From a virus: a stretch of 20,160 bases of DNA. The translations under genes and the position numbers were made by a program. Below, in pieces: positions 14,828 to 19,602 of this stretch. Position 1 is the stretch's first letter. The number at the start of each line of letters is the position of its first letter. The notes under the pieces were generated by a model. The model was not told where the DNA came from. It made no database searches and worked only from the letters and a program-made list of their open reading frames with translations. The stretch is taken from IMG/VR virus record IMGVR_UViG_3300022214_000024, positions 1-20,160 of that record; one strand, given 5' to 3'.

Positions 14828-16845
14828 ATGTCTGACTGCTTGGCCAGGTTCAATTGGCCGGCATGATTTTCCGAAATGATGCGATAGCCTTCGCTGTGCC
14901 GCTCCATGATTCCGGCGTGAATGAGTATCGCTGTGAGGCTGTCAGACCGACTCGGATCAATGCGATTCCGCAATGTGCGCTCTGCCTTGCCGGGCGAATT
15001 TTTTTCCAGATATGCCAGCCATGCGCTGCGGCTGATGTAGGGGCAGCCGTCTGGATTTTCCGCGCCGCTGTTCCACCATGCTGCCGTAAACGCCGTAAAC
15101 GCCTTATTCTCTGGCCCCTGCTTTTCTGGCACCGCTGGCGCTTCCGCAGCCGCCAAGATTGCGCTTGTCACCTGTTCGCCATCCTCATCAAACCAGCCGG
15201 CAATCGGCACTGATTGCAGCGTCACATAAACCGGCTTGGCTTCCTCGGCGTCTTTGGATTTGCGCTGCACAATCTGCATCGGCCCCTCATTTTTGCCAGG
15301 GACAACGCTAATCTCAATTTCCAGCGCGCCCTTCCATGCTGATGAACCTCGCGCCCGGTGCTGGGCTTCGTCACTCACGCCAGTGTGGTGGACTAAGCAA
15401 ACGCTGCAATTGAACTCGCGCATCAGACCGGCGCAAGCATCGATCATCGTCTTGGCATCCTGTGCGCTGTTTTCATCACCGGCTAGAAAGCGGTGCAATG
15501 TATCTACATTAATTAGGCTGGGCGGGCTGGGCAGCGCGCGAATGGCCTCAACGGCTTTCTGATAGCCTTCCGGTGTGTTTAGATCACAGCCGGCTTTTGA
15601 CACCCACATATCCAGCTTGCCGGCGTTGTTGTGCTGTTTCCATGCGGCAACGCGGGAACGCAAGCCATGATGCCCCTCACCTGCCAAATACACCACAGGG
15701 CCAGGCTTGACCTTGTGGCCATGCCATTCGGTTAGCCCGGCTGCGATGTGGAGGCTCCAATCTAGCACCACAAACGTCTTGCCGCCGCCCGATGGGCCAT
15801 GAACCATGATCAAGGCTTGCTCTTGCAGCCAATGCTTGACTAGCCAGCGGATCGGCGCGGGTTCCGTGCAGAATGTGTCAGCCGGCACCAGCCAGCCGCT
15901 ATCAACTGCAGGGCTTAACAGGGCCATTAGATCATGGCCGCCCGCCTTAAAATCGTTGGCATCCATGCCTTCAATCGGCACCCGCACCACCCGGACGCCA
16001 TACTTAGCAGCGGCTTGATCGGCATATTTAAAGCCAATTCCGCCTTTGTCATGATCTGCAACGACCACGATGTCAGCCAAGCTGCCGCGCTTTTCCCGCA
16101 ACGCCTTTGCCACGGCTGGGAGATTGCTGGCGCTGTAAGCAATCGCGCAAGCCTGGCCCGTTTCCTCTGTGATCGTGGCTGCGGTGGCGAAGCCCTCGGC
16201 TATGTAGATAGTGCCGCCGTTGTCATCGCCCACGATCCATTGCGCCTCAGTGGCGCGACCGCTGGCGTGGTAGAGTTTGCCGCCATCGCCGTCGATATAT
16301 TGCAGACTGACAAGGTGGCCGGCTGGGTCATACATAGGCAAGGCAAGCCGCCCGTCACCTGTCACCCGCGCGCCGTTGGGGCTGACACCTTTTCGCACCA
16401 GATACGGATGCCAATCAGGCGCACCGGCAAGGCTTGACCAAATGGTTTCCGCCACGTCTGCAACGGATTCCTGTATCTTGGCCTTGGCAGCATCGCGCGC
16501 CTTGACGGCTTCGGCCAGCCGTTTGGCCTCTGCCATGCGCTCTGGTATCGTCAATTCGCGGCCAATGTCTGCGCGGAATGGGTTATCTATGGCCGCCCGC
16601 CAGCACCCAAACCGCCCAGCCGGAACGCCATCTGGGAACACGCAATACCAGCCCGATGTGTCATGGCCCGGCTTGCCTTTGGTGTAGCTGTCAAAGCGAT
16701 GCAGTTTGCCATCAATTTTAATGTTAGCCGGTGGCCTGATGCCCGCCTGTTCCATCGCGGCGGCAAGCTGCACCTCTGGCGGGTCAAACTGCGGTTGCGC
16801 TGGTGGCGTCCACGGGCCATCTAGGATTTTGGTTAGGTCAGCCAT
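14809..16845 (-). CDS. Toprim primase fused to RepA-like helicase, 678 aa
   Basis: Replication protein that likely primes and unwinds phage DNA. N-terminal domain (1-110): GKLHRFDSYTKGKPGHDTSG and WYCVFPDGVPAGRFGCWRA, a primase-type zinc-free N-terminus. Toprim domain (about 205-310): TIYIAEGFATAATI with the catalytic Glu (217), and IVVVADHDKGG with the DxD-like ADHD (263-266). RepA/AAA_25 helicase (about 330-560): Walker A GPSGGGKT (350-357), Walker B LINVDTL (444-450), then VCLVHHTGVSDEAQHRARGS, a sensor-like part, and ALEIEISVV. The C-terminal 100 residues are helical, possibly a winged helix, and end MAPNGP inside the AGGGGCC repeats. AAAGGG lies before the ATG; it begins 1 nt into the methyltransferase stop. 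Confidence 0.9.
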   Translation of the reverse strand: MADLTKILDGPWTPPAQPQFDPPEVQLAAAMEQAGIRPPANIKIDGKLHRFDSYTKGKPGHDTSGWYCVFPDGVPAGRFGCWRAAIDNPFRADIGRELTIPERMAEAKRLAEAVKARDAAKAKIQESVADVAETIWSSLAGAPDWHPYLVRKGVSPNGARVTGDGRLALPMYDPAGHLVSLQYIDGDGGKLYHASGRATEAQWIVGDDNGGTIYIAEGFATAATITEETGQACAIAYSASNLPAVAKALREKRGSLADIVVVADHDKGGIGFKYADQAAAKYGVRVVRVPIEGMDANDFKAGGHDLMALLSPAVDSGWLVPADTFCTEPAPIRWLVKHWLQEQALIMVHGPSGGGKTFVVLDWSLHIAAGLTEWHGHKVKPGPVVYLAGEGHHGLRSRVAAWKQHNNAGKLDMWVSKAGCDLNTPEGYQKAVEAIRALPSPPSLINVDTLHRFLAGDENSAQDAKTMIDACAGLMREFNCSVCLVHHTGVSDEAQHRARGSSAWKGALEIEISVVPGKNEGPMQIVQRKSKDAEEAKPVYVTLQSVPIAGWFDEDGEQVTSAILAAAEAPAVPEKQGPENKAFTAFTAAWWNSGAENPDGCPYISRSAWLAYLEKNSPGKAERTLRNRIDPSRSDSLTAILIHAGIMERHSEGYRIISENHAGQLNLAKQSDMAPNGP

Positions 16846-17582
16846 TAGCCCGCCCTTTCAATGAACATATCGCCTTGACGTTGTGCCTGCTCAATGCGGC
16901 GGCAGGCAATGTCGAAATACTTGGGTTCGCGCTCAATGCCGATGAACTTGCGGCCCATCTGAACGGCAGCAACGCCAGTGGTGCCGCTGCCCATGAAGGG
17001 ATCAAGGATGGTTTGGGCATCCATAGTAAAGTCGCCTATTATTTCAGCCATTAAACGGCGGGGCTTTTCTGTAGGGTGTGTGCCTTCACGTTCAGAATTG
17101 TTGGTGCAATGTGTATACACACCACGCTTGCCTCCTGCATTCCACCGCGCATAGCTATCACCGGCCCATGCACAAACAAAGTTTTCAGCGCCTTGCGCCG
17201 GCCCCTGTCCATTTAGTTGTGGCGTGGCGTCAGGCTTCACCCAAACGCAAGCGCGCTTATATTTCATCGTGCTGTGATTAATCTCATCTGCCCACAGCCA
17301 AACTCCTTCAGGAGTGCAAAATGCGATAAACCAACCATTGGACAAAGCTGCGCCAAGGCGAACCACATCTGATCGAATGCTATCAATTGAATCAAAATCT
17401 AATGGCTTTAAGTCGGGGCCACGGTCAGCACGAATCCGCCTTGCAAGTTCATTTTTCATTTTATGAATAAATGCTTCGTATGGTGGATCACAAATAATGT
17501 GATCAACCGCATCAAGCTGGGTCATAATTTCAAGGCAATCGCCTAGATAAAGCGTTGCCGCGCCTATCGTCTCAATTCGCAT
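16845..17582 (-). CDS. Beta-class DNA methyltransferase (N6-adenine or N4-cytosine), 245 aa
   Basis: Transfers a methyl group from S-adenosylmethionine to an exocyclic amine in DNA. The catalytic motif DPPY (32-35) comes before the SAM-binding DPFMGSGTTG (194-203), the order of beta-class enzymes. Other matches: TEKPRRLMAEII (about 178-189) and the last segment GRKFIGIEREPKYFDIACRR. The target recognition region lies between (about 40-140) and is not informative. The start is MRIETIGAAT at 17582 with GGGTGG upstream; the GTG at 17591 would add three residues. No restriction enzyme is seen nearby, so this looks like a solitary protective or regulatory methylase. The start codon lies inside an 8-bp hairpin and overlaps the regulator stop by 11 nt. 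Confidence 0.92.
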   Translation of the reverse strand: MRIETIGAATLYLGDCLEIMTQLDAVDHIICDPPYEAFIHKMKNELARRIRADRGPDLKPLDFDSIDSIRSDVVRLGAALSNGWFIAFCTPEGVWLWADEINHSTMKYKRACVWVKPDATPQLNGQGPAQGAENFVCAWAGDSYARWNAGGKRGVYTHCTNNSEREGTHPTEKPRRLMAEIIGDFTMDAQTILDPFMGSGTTGVAAVQMGRKFIGIEREPKYFDIACRRIEQAQRQGDMFIERAG

Positions 17583-17588
17583 TGAGAC
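17569..17588 (-). promoter_or_regulatory. Start-codon hairpin of the methyltransferase
   Basis: The 20-nt minus-strand sequence GTCTCAATGCGAATTGAGAC is a perfect 8-bp inverted repeat with a GCGA loop, a GNRA-type tetraloop. The methyltransferase ATG (17582-17580) straddles stem and loop, and the stop codon of the regulator gene (17574-17572) is in the 3' arm. As RNA it would hide the start; as DNA it could be a binding site for a dimeric protein. Confidence 0.65.
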
Positions 17589-17751
17589 CACCCATCAAAT
17601 AATCTGCCAACCGCTGCACCGTTTGATAGCGCGGATTGGTGCTGTTGCCGTTGCGGATGTCACTAATGGCATCTTTTGACAGGCCGGTTGCCTTTGCCAC
17701 TACATCAATGCGCCGATCCTTTAGCGCCTCGCGCACTTTTTCAAGCGTCAT
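17572..17751 (-). CDS. Cro/XRE-like helix-turn-helix regulator, 59 aa
   Basis: Small DNA-binding regulator. The likely start is MTLEKVREALKDRRIDVVAK (ATG 17751-17749, GGAG 9 nt before). A HTH at about 15-37 reads VVAKATGLSKDAISDIRNGN, followed by NPRYQTVQRLADYL, as in small phage Cro-like proteins. A longer version from 17790 (MKMRRRAVTEKKR) exists, but the predicted transcription start near 17784 falls after that codon, favouring the short form. It stands alone at the divergent boundary beside a strong dyad, and is first in the long minus-strand transcript, so autorepression and control of the recombination operon are plausible. Confidence 0.75.
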   Translation of the reverse strand: MTLEKVREALKDRRIDVVAKATGLSKDAISDIRNGNSTNPRYQTVQRLADYLMGGLNAN

Positions 17752-17790
17752 GCGTTTTTTCTCCGTCACGGCCCGTCGCCGCATTTTCAT

Positions 17791-17821
17791 GCTTTACATC
17801 CGCATTGGATGGCTGTAAAGC
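17791..17821. promoter_or_regulatory. Divergent promoter/operator dyad
   Basis: GCTTTACA (17791-17798) and TGTAAAGC (17814-17821) form a perfect 8-bp inverted repeat with 15 nt between, and ATCC/GGAT are repeated inside. Each strand thus carries TTTACA, 17 nt, TAAAGC, a -35 and a weak -10 at correct spacing, giving two face-to-face promoters in one symmetrical element, probably an operator of the adjacent HTH protein. Confidence 0.55.
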
Positions 17822-17830
17822 CCTCAATCA

Positions 17831-17859
17831 CACCGCGACCGGATCAGCCGACTGCGGTG
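17831..17859 (+). promoter_or_regulatory. Second inverted repeat in the leader of the recombination operon
   Basis: CACCGC (17831-17836) pairs with GCGGTG (17854-17859) across 17 nt. It lies just downstream of the predicted plus-strand start site and before the GGAG Shine-Dalgarno of the ATPase gene. A leader stem or half-operators are possible; support is weak because the arms are short. Confidence 0.3.
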
Positions 17860-17872
17860 CTGGAGAAAGACA

Positions 17873-18553
17873 ATGGCTATCAACCTAAAGAGGACAGGCG
17901 GCCTATCTGCCAATGGTGTTAAAATGTGCGTATATGGCCAGGCAGGCGCTGGCAAAACCAGCCTGATTTCGACTTTGCCCAATGTCGTGGCAATCAGTGC
18001 GGAAGGCGGATTGCTTTCGATTGCGGGTGCAGACGTGCCTTATATCGAAGTGAAAAGTTTGGCCGATCTGCACGATGCTTATGCGTGGCTGACCAGCAGC
18101 GAGGAAGCCAAGGCGTTCCAATCAGTGGCTATCGACAGCCTGTCAGAAGTTGCTGAAGTGGTGCTGAACGCTGAACTCAAAGCCAACAAAGATGGCCGCG
18201 CGGCATACGGTGAACTTAGCACAAAGATGAATGAGCTAATCCGTGCCTTCCGTGATCTGCCGGGCAAACATGTTTATATGTCTGCCAAGCTGGAAAAATC
18301 ACAGGATGAGATGGGCCGCATTCTTTACAATGCCTCCATGCCGGGTAAGTCACTGACACAGGGTTTGCCTTATTTCTTCGATCTCGTCATGGCCTTGCGT
18401 GTCGAACGCGATGCCGATGGCAACGCTCACCGTGCGCTGCTTACCGACAGTGACGGGCTTTGGCAGGCTAAAGACCGTTCCGGCAAGCTGGCCCAGTGGG
18501 AAGCGCCAGACCTTGGCGCGATCATTGCCAAGATTGGGAGTGCGTCATGCTAA
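17873..18553 (+). CDS. Sak4-like RecA-fold ATPase, 226 aa
   Basis: Probable phage recombinase of the Sak4/AAA_24 type, which works with ssDNA-binding protein in annealing. Walker A GQAGAGKT (22-29), Walker B region SVAIDSLSEV (84-93, Asp88), then GELSTKMNELIRAFRDLPG and VYMSAKLEKSQDE with LYNASMPGKSLTQGLPYFFD, as in phage AAA_24 proteins. The start ATG at 17873 has GGAG 7 nt upstream. First gene of the plus-strand operon; its last codons overlap a small membrane gene by 7 nt (ATGCTAA). The genes that follow (DUF669, exonuclease) support a role in recombination. Confidence 0.85.
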   Translation: MAINLKRTGGLSANGVKMCVYGQAGAGKTSLISTLPNVVAISAEGGLLSIAGADVPYIEVKSLADLHDAYAWLTSSEEAKAFQSVAIDSLSEVAEVVLNAELKANKDGRAAYGELSTKMNELIRAFRDLPGKHVYMSAKLEKSQDEMGRILYNASMPGKSLTQGLPYFFDLVMALRVERDADGNAHRALLTDSDGLWQAKDRSGKLAQWEAPDLGAIIAKIGSASC

Positions 18554-18714
18554 TCGCCCTCGCCATCGCACAAGCGATATTCGCCATCGGCGCTCTGCCG
18601 GTGATCAATGGCAACATTCGTGATCGGCACGTCAGTGCAGCATGGGGCAGCATATTTGCCTGCTTGCTGTTTAGCGTGACCGCTTACGTCCTTGCAATGG
18701 AGGCTATGCAGTGA
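18547..18714 (+). CDS. Small two-helix membrane protein, 55 aa
   Basis: Starts at ATG 18547 (MLIALAIAQAIFAIGALPVI), with GGGAG 6 nt before, and overlaps the ATPase stop. Two likely membrane helices: residues 1-20 and about 30-52 (AAWGSIFACLLFSVTAYVLA), with a short polar loop NGNIRDRHVS between. No family recognised. Its stop overlaps the next gene's GTG start by 3 nt, so it is a real member of the operon. It may be a membrane anchor, a holin-like peptide or a superinfection protein; none of these is shown. Confidence 0.7.
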   Translation: MLIALAIAQAIFAIGALPVINGNIRDRHVSAAWGSIFACLLFSVTAYVLAMEAMQ

Positions 18715-19091
18715 CCGTGCCAATCTATCAGCAATGGCTAAACGCCAAGGCAGTTGAGGAAGCCGCCATCAAGACGCGCCGCGATCTGGAAGATGCGATG
18801 GCGTTCGAATTGGCTTTGCCGGCCAATCTTGACGGCGCCAGCAATTATGACCGCGATGGCTATGCGGTGAAGGTTGTTGGCCGCATCAATCGCAAGATTG
18901 ATTCCGACAAGCTGCAATCGCTGGCGGCAGAGCATGGCCTAGCCGATCATCTGCCCAGCCTTTTCCGGTGGAAGCCGGAAATCAACGCGACGGCATGGAA
19001 AGCTGCCGCTGCAACTATCACCCAGCCATTGCTTGACGCCATCACGTCAACGCCTGGCCGCCCTAGCTTCACCATCACACGAAAGGATTAA
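18711..19091 (+). CDS. DUF7173-like phage protein, 126 aa
   Basis: Conserved phage protein of unknown job, usually found with recombination or replication genes. The start is the GTG at 18711 with GGAGG 7 nt before, overlapping the previous stop. The N-terminal half is a charged helix (AKAVEEAAIKTRRDLEDAMA); then comes DRDGYAVKVVGRINRKIDSD, followed by KLQSLAAEHGLADHLPSLFR and WKPEINATAWKAAA, the family pattern, and a C-terminal strand TPGRPSFTITRKD. It may interact with the DUF669 or ATPase protein, by position only. Confidence 0.72.
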   Translation: MTVPIYQQWLNAKAVEEAAIKTRRDLEDAMAFELALPANLDGASNYDRDGYAVKVVGRINRKIDSDKLQSLAAEHGLADHLPSLFRWKPEINATAWKAAAATITQPLLDAITSTPGRPSFTITRKD

Positions 19092-19095
19092 GACA

Positions 19096-19602
19096 ATGGC
19101 TAACCTCGGAGAAAGCTTTAACGCTGATGAACTGCCCACCGGCAGCACTGGCGAATATGAACTGCTGCCGGAAGGGCTTTATTCGGCCATGATCGCCAAG
19201 GCAGAAGTTGGACAGACCAAATCCGGCACCGGCACGAAGATTGATTTGCGCCTCGACATCACCGGGCCGACACATCAGGGCCGGGTGATTTTTGCGGCGA
19301 TCAACATCCGCAACCAATCGGCCAAGGCAGAGGAAATTGGCCGGCAACAGCTTGGCGAGATCATGCGCGCCATCGGCCTGCCACGCCTTGAAGATAGCGA
19401 CCAGCTTGTTGGTGGTCAGTTGCAGATCAAGGTGAAGGTGCGCCAGCCTTCGCCGGATGATGTGGCGCGCGGCTATAGCCAAGCCCGCAACGATGTGGGC
19501 GGTTATCGCGCTCTTGCCGGCGGTGGGCTTCCTGCGCCGTCTGCTTCCAAGGCTGCCGCCGCACCGGCTGCATCTAGCGCAAAACCGCCCTGGGCAAAGT
19601 AA
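19096..19602 (+). CDS. DUF669 ssDNA-binding-like protein, 168 aa
   Basis: Probable phage single-strand binding protein of the DUF669 family. The start ATG at 19096 (MANLGESFNADELPTGSTGE) has AAGGA 8 nt before. An OB-fold-like core is suggested by PEGLYSAMIAKAEVGQTKSG, GTKIDLRLDITGPTHQGRVI and FAAINIRNQSAKAEEIGRQQ, with LGEIMRAIGLPRLEDSDQLV. The last 35 residues are Ala/Pro/Ser-rich and disordered, ending KPPWAK, similar in spirit to SSB tails but basic. The product is likely abundant, and a GGGGCTGG hairpin follows it. Its neighbours are the Sak4-like ATPase and the exonuclease. Confidence 0.83.
   Translation: MANLGESFNADELPTGSTGEYELLPEGLYSAMIAKAEVGQTKSGTGTKIDLRLDITGPTHQGRVIFAAINIRNQSAKAEEIGRQQLGEIMRAIGLPRLEDSDQLVGGQLQIKVKVRQPSPDDVARGYSQARNDVGGYRALAGGGLPAPSASKAAAAPAASSAKPPWAK

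Follow-up and report, generated by a model that had tools for sequence, protein, structure and literature searches.

We favor, with fair confidence, a reading in which positions 17791-17821 of the analyzed phage DNA (a stretch of 20,160 nucleotides, hereafter the window) are the shared core of two superimposed divergent promoters and the operator of a small helix-turn-helix (HTH) protein, with negative feedback and a 5' hairpin leader on one transcript. The two promoters would lie almost wholly on top of each other in this core. The rightward promoter would drive the operon of Sak4, DUF669, and a Cas4-type exonuclease, and the leftward promoter the genes of the HTH protein, a DNA methyltransferase, a primase-helicase, and others further on. 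Only one polymerase at a time would be able to use the overlapping promoters. The small Cro-like HTH protein, itself a product of the leftward transcript, may bind the arms of an inverted repeat (dyad) as its operator and repress both promoters, limiting its own synthesis; this would amount to negative feedback rather than a lysogeny switch. A conserved hairpin would mark the start of the rightward mRNA. The observations behind this reading are the dyad and its conservation, predicted promoters that overlap in locus after locus, and sense-strand covariation in the hairpin, from which we infer the start sites, HTH binding, repression, competition, and hairpin function.

The dyad is located in the 121-nt intergenic region, with the Cro-like HTH gene on one side and the recombination operon headed by Sak4 on the other (Table 1). 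Its arms are GCTTTACA (17791-17798) and TGTAAAGC (17814-17821), and across it both strands read TTTACA, 17 nt, TAAAGC. The initial annotation had given these coordinates and this arrangement exactly. It had also proposed that the dyad be sought elsewhere, and a search of the whole IMG/VR virus record, 20,160 bases long, returned a single match when two mismatches at most were allowed. For the annotated pattern, which was picked after the fact, the chance expectation with up to three mismatches allowed is 0.03 occurrences per window. With spacers of 3-20 nt, the window contained 20 perfect 8-bp inverted repeats, compared to a mean of 6.6 in five mononucleotide shuffles. When the 121-nt intergenic region was shuffled 3000 times, 67 of the shuffles contained at least one perfect 8-bp dyad. 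Because such dyads are common in the window, rarity was dropped as proof of function. Taken alone, the dyad is only mildly unusual, and its reality therefore rests on conservation among relatives. The spacer of the window's dyad also holds an inner inverted repeat, CATCC-GCATT-GGATG (17797-17811), which sits within variable spacer and was rejected as a general feature.

Table 1. Positions of the promoter, operator, leader, and coding features around the dyad (window coordinates).
Feature	Position	Strand	Details
Dyad GCTTTACA-N15-TGTAAAGC	17791..17821	.	Probable operator and core common to two divergent promoters
Predicted rightward promoter	17793..17821	+	TTTACA 17793-17798, 17-nt spacer, TAAAGC 17816-17821; putative start about 17828
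Predicted leftward promoter	17791..17819	-	TTTACA 17819-17814, 17-nt spacer, TAAAGC 17796-17791; putative start about 17784
5' leader hairpin of the predicted Sak4 mRNA	17831..17859	+	Outer stem and 3-bp inner stem separated by a 3x3 internal loop; loop of 5-6 nt
GGAG, ribosome site of Sak4	17862..17865	+	Read from sequence
Gene for a Sak4-like ssDNA annealing protein, which opens the rightward recombination operon	17873..18553	+	AAA_24 7e-28; phrog_124 6.6e-54
GGAG, ribosome site of the short HTH form	17761..17764	-	Read from sequence
Cro/C1-type HTH protein, short form, 59 aa	17572..17751	-	HTH_3 2.7e-07; likely regulator of both promoters

Conservation was examined at the loci of the best 80 of 488 Sak4 relatives. 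Among these 80, 21 loci encoded a Sak4 at least 95% identical to that of the window, and CTTTACA-N15-TGTAAAG was present in all 19 of them that had 110 nt of upstream DNA. The other 59 of the best 80 encoded a Sak4 76-82% identical; 57 had upstream DNA, of which 22 carried exact CTTTACA-N15-TGTAAAG and 35 carried TTTAC...GTAAA. This last search pattern fixes ten arm positions of the dyad, so conservation among loci picked by the dyad is partly circular, and the count on such loci was replaced by one on loci picked by Sak4 identity. In 16 distinct sequences chosen in the latter manner, including the window, every arm column was invariant (8/8 and 8/8); outside the arms, 5/15 spacer columns and 6/28 columns on the HTH side were invariant. 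In the 22 dyad-type representatives, the spacer was low in information at most positions, and the arm positions left free by the pattern (outer C/G, inner A/T) were kept in 19, 21, 21, and 20 of 22. The gap between the arms was 15 nt in 22/23 dyad-type representatives and 16 nt in L072. Among 80 HTH relatives, 14 had the dyad upstream, with a gap of 15 nt in 14/14. An IMG/VR scan with CTTTACA-N(9-21)-TGTAAAG gave a gap of 15 in 10 of the 80 loci listed, which were mostly background; four dyads among those 80 loci lay near an HTH relative, all with a gap of 15 nt. A scan of genome contigs yielded only six MAG loci. Searches of 15 whole records with up to two mismatches gave a single dyad in 14 of them; the 15th is a dyad-less record that is not of the dyad type. 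Judged from sequence comparison, the conservation of the arms indicates that the dyad is functional.

Promoters were scored with a sigma70 matrix on both strands of 70 representatives (88% identity limit). Twelve, with the HTH start 422-1021 nt from Sak4, were set aside by inspection and 58 were kept; of the latter, the 14 drawn from the HTH search showed a distance of 117-132 nt. The best plus- and minus-strand promoters overlapped by at least 20 bp in 58/70 representatives overall, and in 53/58 kept representatives compared to 356/1160 shuffles (31%). The overlap was below 20 bp in L044, L052, L075, L355, and L372. The claim that the promoters of two divergent operons overlap is thus borne out as a prediction. 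The term "face-to-face" had to be given up, as the promoters are divergent: the transcripts would run apart from predicted starts 44 bp from each other. The -35 element of each predicted promoter overlaps the -10 element of the other by four bases, so that two polymerases should be unable to occupy the site together. The predicted start separation was 44 bp in 21/23 dyad-type representatives (null 56/2320) and 36-39 bp in 31/35 non-dyad representatives (null 149/2320). The shared-promoter reading of the dyad region is largely supported by these results.

The dyad-type promoters themselves scored modestly (mean 6.3 versus 4.8 and 4.3 in shuffles). Scores above 95% of shuffles were reached by 2/22 rightward and 1/22 leftward promoters, the weaker-strand score exceeded the null 95% level in 0/23, and the window's site was not listed by a stricter promoter scan. 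TAAAGC matches TATAAT at 3/6 positions, with A at position 2 and no T at position 6, so the dyad promoters lack the pair of bases that defines a sigma70 -10 element (A and T at positions 2 and 6); a -35-like hexamer about 17 nt upstream, TTTACA, is present on both strands. Position 6 was T in 0/22 dyad-type matches per strand, and in 30/35 (right) and 35/35 (left) of the non-dyad representatives. This consistent lack of T would suit a dyad that serves only as operator, whether of the HTH protein or of some host factor, with an accidental likeness to promoters and transcription starting elsewhere, as would the spacing fixed at 15 nt and the stricter keeping of the arms than promoter hexamers require. 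We consider this alternative unlikely, because the best matches of both strands in dyad-type loci still land on the dyad and overlap in 21/22. Furthermore, more distant dyad-less relatives carry stronger sigma70-like promoters on both strands in the same place, at the same distance from the hairpin, and these overlap too. For example, TTGACA-18-TAGAGT is paired with TTGCAA-18-TACGAT in L050, which has no dyad, and TTGACA-17-TAGATT with TTGACT-17-TATGAT in Idiomarinaceae phage 1N2-2 (L167). Alteromonas phage PB15 likewise shows the layout without a dyad.

The candidate regulator is a member of Pfam HTH_3 (31 bits, curated cut-off 23). The short form of the protein, favored in the initial annotation, agreed with its own GGAG site, with relatives that start at the matching codon, and with L007, which has no long frame. 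A transcription start at about 17784 would omit the ATG at 17790, which also supports the short form. The AlphaFold model showed four helices with a mean pLDDT of 86.6, and in a PDB fold search with this model XRE-type proteins ranked highest, with no match reaching E 0.001. The fold matches included 8rc5 and 8qe9, in which Sak4/Sak annealing proteins are complexed with the XRE-type Stl of SaPI2. TAL-effector matches were discarded as repeat artefacts, no single stretch having passed. In some dyad-type records, a second HTH_3 match was observed several kb from the dyad, at G001:10011-10142, G002:17676-17807, G003:19833-19964, and G006:13736-13867.

The symmetrical arms are likely the operator of this small HTH protein. 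The half-sites are 21 bp apart from centre to centre, equal to two DNA turns and far for one dimer of a 59-residue protein, and hence binding may take two dimers or a tetramer. HTH proteins beside the dyad were 37-51% identical to that of the window (11 compared). The helix 3 residue after T-[ILV], read by eye, was small or aliphatic in 22/22 dyad-type proteins and R/K/Y/W in 22/23 non-dyad proteins, with L324 as the exception; further dyad-less HTH proteins also have A at this position, and the pairing of recognition helix and dyad is suggestive but follows clades, with exceptions. Less probable still than the pure operator is that the arms are kept for RNA polymerase alone and that the HTH protein binds elsewhere or controls other genes. 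Relatives do pair HTH proteins of unlike families with similar TTG...CAA promoter pairs, suggesting that the promoter layout outlives the regulator. Recognition-helix residues also differ among dyad-type HTH proteins beside constant arms, and one dyad-type representative has the 16-nt spacer. However, every arm position is held in dyad-type loci, even those of little use to the polymerase, T at -7 is absent there, and the dyad type goes with the HTH type at the helix 3 residue, the noted exceptions aside. That the inverted repeat arose by chance, or is an RNA hairpin or terminator with no regulatory role, is highly improbable: perfect 8-bp dyads abound in the window and the dyad as RNA has folding energies of -11.7 and -11.5 kcal/mol, but the 19/19 near relatives among the best 80 of 488 keep it while the spacer and the HTH gene change, no terminator is listed there, and the dyad lies outside the predicted transcripts.

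In the favored reading of overlapping promoters under HTH control, the rightward transcript would carry the hairpin leader. The end of the -10 element was 6-9 nt ahead of the hairpin stem in 56/58 representatives (L168 and L169 differ), so the Sak4 message should start at or beside the stem. For the hairpin work, 10/70 representatives were excluded at the outset. The leader template fitted better than all 40 shuffles in 51/58 kept representatives; it was matched or beaten by 1-2 shuffles in 5/58 and by more in 2/58. Among the 12 set-aside representatives, 4 beat all 40 shuffles, 2 were matched or beaten by 1-2, and 6 by more. Covariation was examined in alignment A3, which holds 35 sequences (34 of 50 listed hairpins and the window) selected among those fitting the template, with four hairpins extended by one base at each end and some rows out of register. 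In A3, 66 two-sided changes kept the pairing, compared to 24.9 (sd 3.7) in shuffled and at most 29 in slid alignments, and RNAalifold recovered 6 of the hairpin's pairs. In the 28/35 rows that were in register, with the outermost pair excluded, G-U occurred 11 times compared to a single A-C, as would be expected of the sense RNA. The hairpin of the window, which the initial annotation does not mention, had a folding energy of -15.1 kcal/mol (z -3.0).

An Rfam search of 16500-19200 gave three matches at E up to 5, none of them on the hairpin. A covariance model of the hairpin, run over 49 loci rather than whole genomes, recovered the known sites. Its extra matches were weak in L030 (E 0.056) and misplaced in L170 (E 0.73), and it found nothing in the Seurat, Me-ZS1, RHph_Y55, and Mcat23 loci. 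In the Sak4 loci L044, L045, and L052, the leader hairpin was kept although the divergent gene encodes an unlike protein (MITDEYREQ...) and the promoters form no clear overlapping pair. Most simply, the hairpin would shield the 5' end of the mRNA from decay or serve as a protein-binding leader. ompA and papA are examples of 5'-terminal mRNA stem-loops. As in these, a stem starting at the 5' end of the message is predicted in the phage leader; unlike in these, the internal loop and inner stem of the phage hairpin are conserved features in themselves. Work on stem-loops of the ompA/papA type appears among the references in PMC3997798.

Downstream of Sak4 lie genes for DUF7173, DUF669, and a Cas4-type exonuclease. 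Leftward, the HTH gene is followed in the ORF list by a DNA methyltransferase, a primase-helicase, and more genes on the same strand. The methyltransferase (window 16845-17582) was 99% identical in L086 and about 43% identical in L110, L111, L112, L114, L115, and L116, and in several of these six the contig's Sak4 was 96% identical. HTH alleles were exchanged as well as the methyltransferase. No Sak4 is annotated in Roseobacter phage CRP-406, whose helicase is placed near two relatives in a paper. Life style was examined in 17 records, namely 4 complete named phages and 13 IMG/VR records that are possibly fragments. Integrase (PF00589) and S24 repressor (PF00717) were found in 0/17 records, and some HTH_3 match in 12/17. 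The lack of both lysogeny proteins in these 17 records makes a lysogeny switch unlikely. Lambda-type Cro/CI regions have a small Cro/C1-type protein between divergent operons and three operators. The phage locus resembles them in having such a protein between divergent operons, and differs in the lack of an S24-type repressor and integrase in the 17 records and in a single dyad, one in each of 14 records and none in the 15th, instead of several operators. On these grounds, a lambda-like switch was not borne out.

Overlapping divergent promoters are known already. We found no account of this promoter module or leader in the open-licence literature. As described in PMC4207663, the overlapping divergent promoters Pc and Pr of pLS20 serve as a switch with RcoLS20; polymerase can bind only one of the two, and the regulator sites overlap the core. 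The predicted core promoters of the divergent phage operons likewise overlap beside a regulator gene, a prediction that holds for 53/58 representatives. pLS20 also has a tetramer, DNA looping, two operators, promoters of unlike strength, and mapped starts, whereas the phage locus has one dyad per record, two equal predicted promoters, and starts that are predicted only. According to PMC12825309 and PMC10268837, bidirectional promoters in E. coli and Salmonella share a -10 and start transcription at points 7-25 bp from each other, most often 18 bp, and the basal activity of five tested promoters was too low for polymerase competition. Symmetry would permit divergent starts from one short stretch in both cases, but the predicted phage starts, 44 or 36-39 bp apart, fall outside the range of 7-25 bp, and -35 lies on -10.

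A wider joint reading is offered tentatively: the locus may be a conserved start cassette, combined with a new class of cis-acting leader RNA and feedback from Sak4 to the HTH protein. The promoters would be locked in one of two registers, with starts 44 or about 38 bp apart, and repressor types would be swapped around them. The first stem of the leader RNA would begin at the start site, and the RNA would protect the message or be bound by a phage protein. The Sak4 product would feed back on the HTH protein, which is conceivable because of the solved Sak4 complex with the XRE-type Stl of SaPI2; by analogy, this complex is a possible hint that Sak4 acts on its own repressor.

With these comparisons, a guess from a single sequence becomes a testable family, in which the same layout is found with different regulators across many relatives. 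The relatives allow the promoter overlap, the operator, and the leader RNA to be studied apart, and a candidate structured RNA without an Rfam match is gained. The locus may serve as a guide to annotating the early control regions of Sak4-bearing phages that lack lysogeny genes, and it would provide a minimal system for testing whether polymerase exclusion at overlapping promoters matters during infection.
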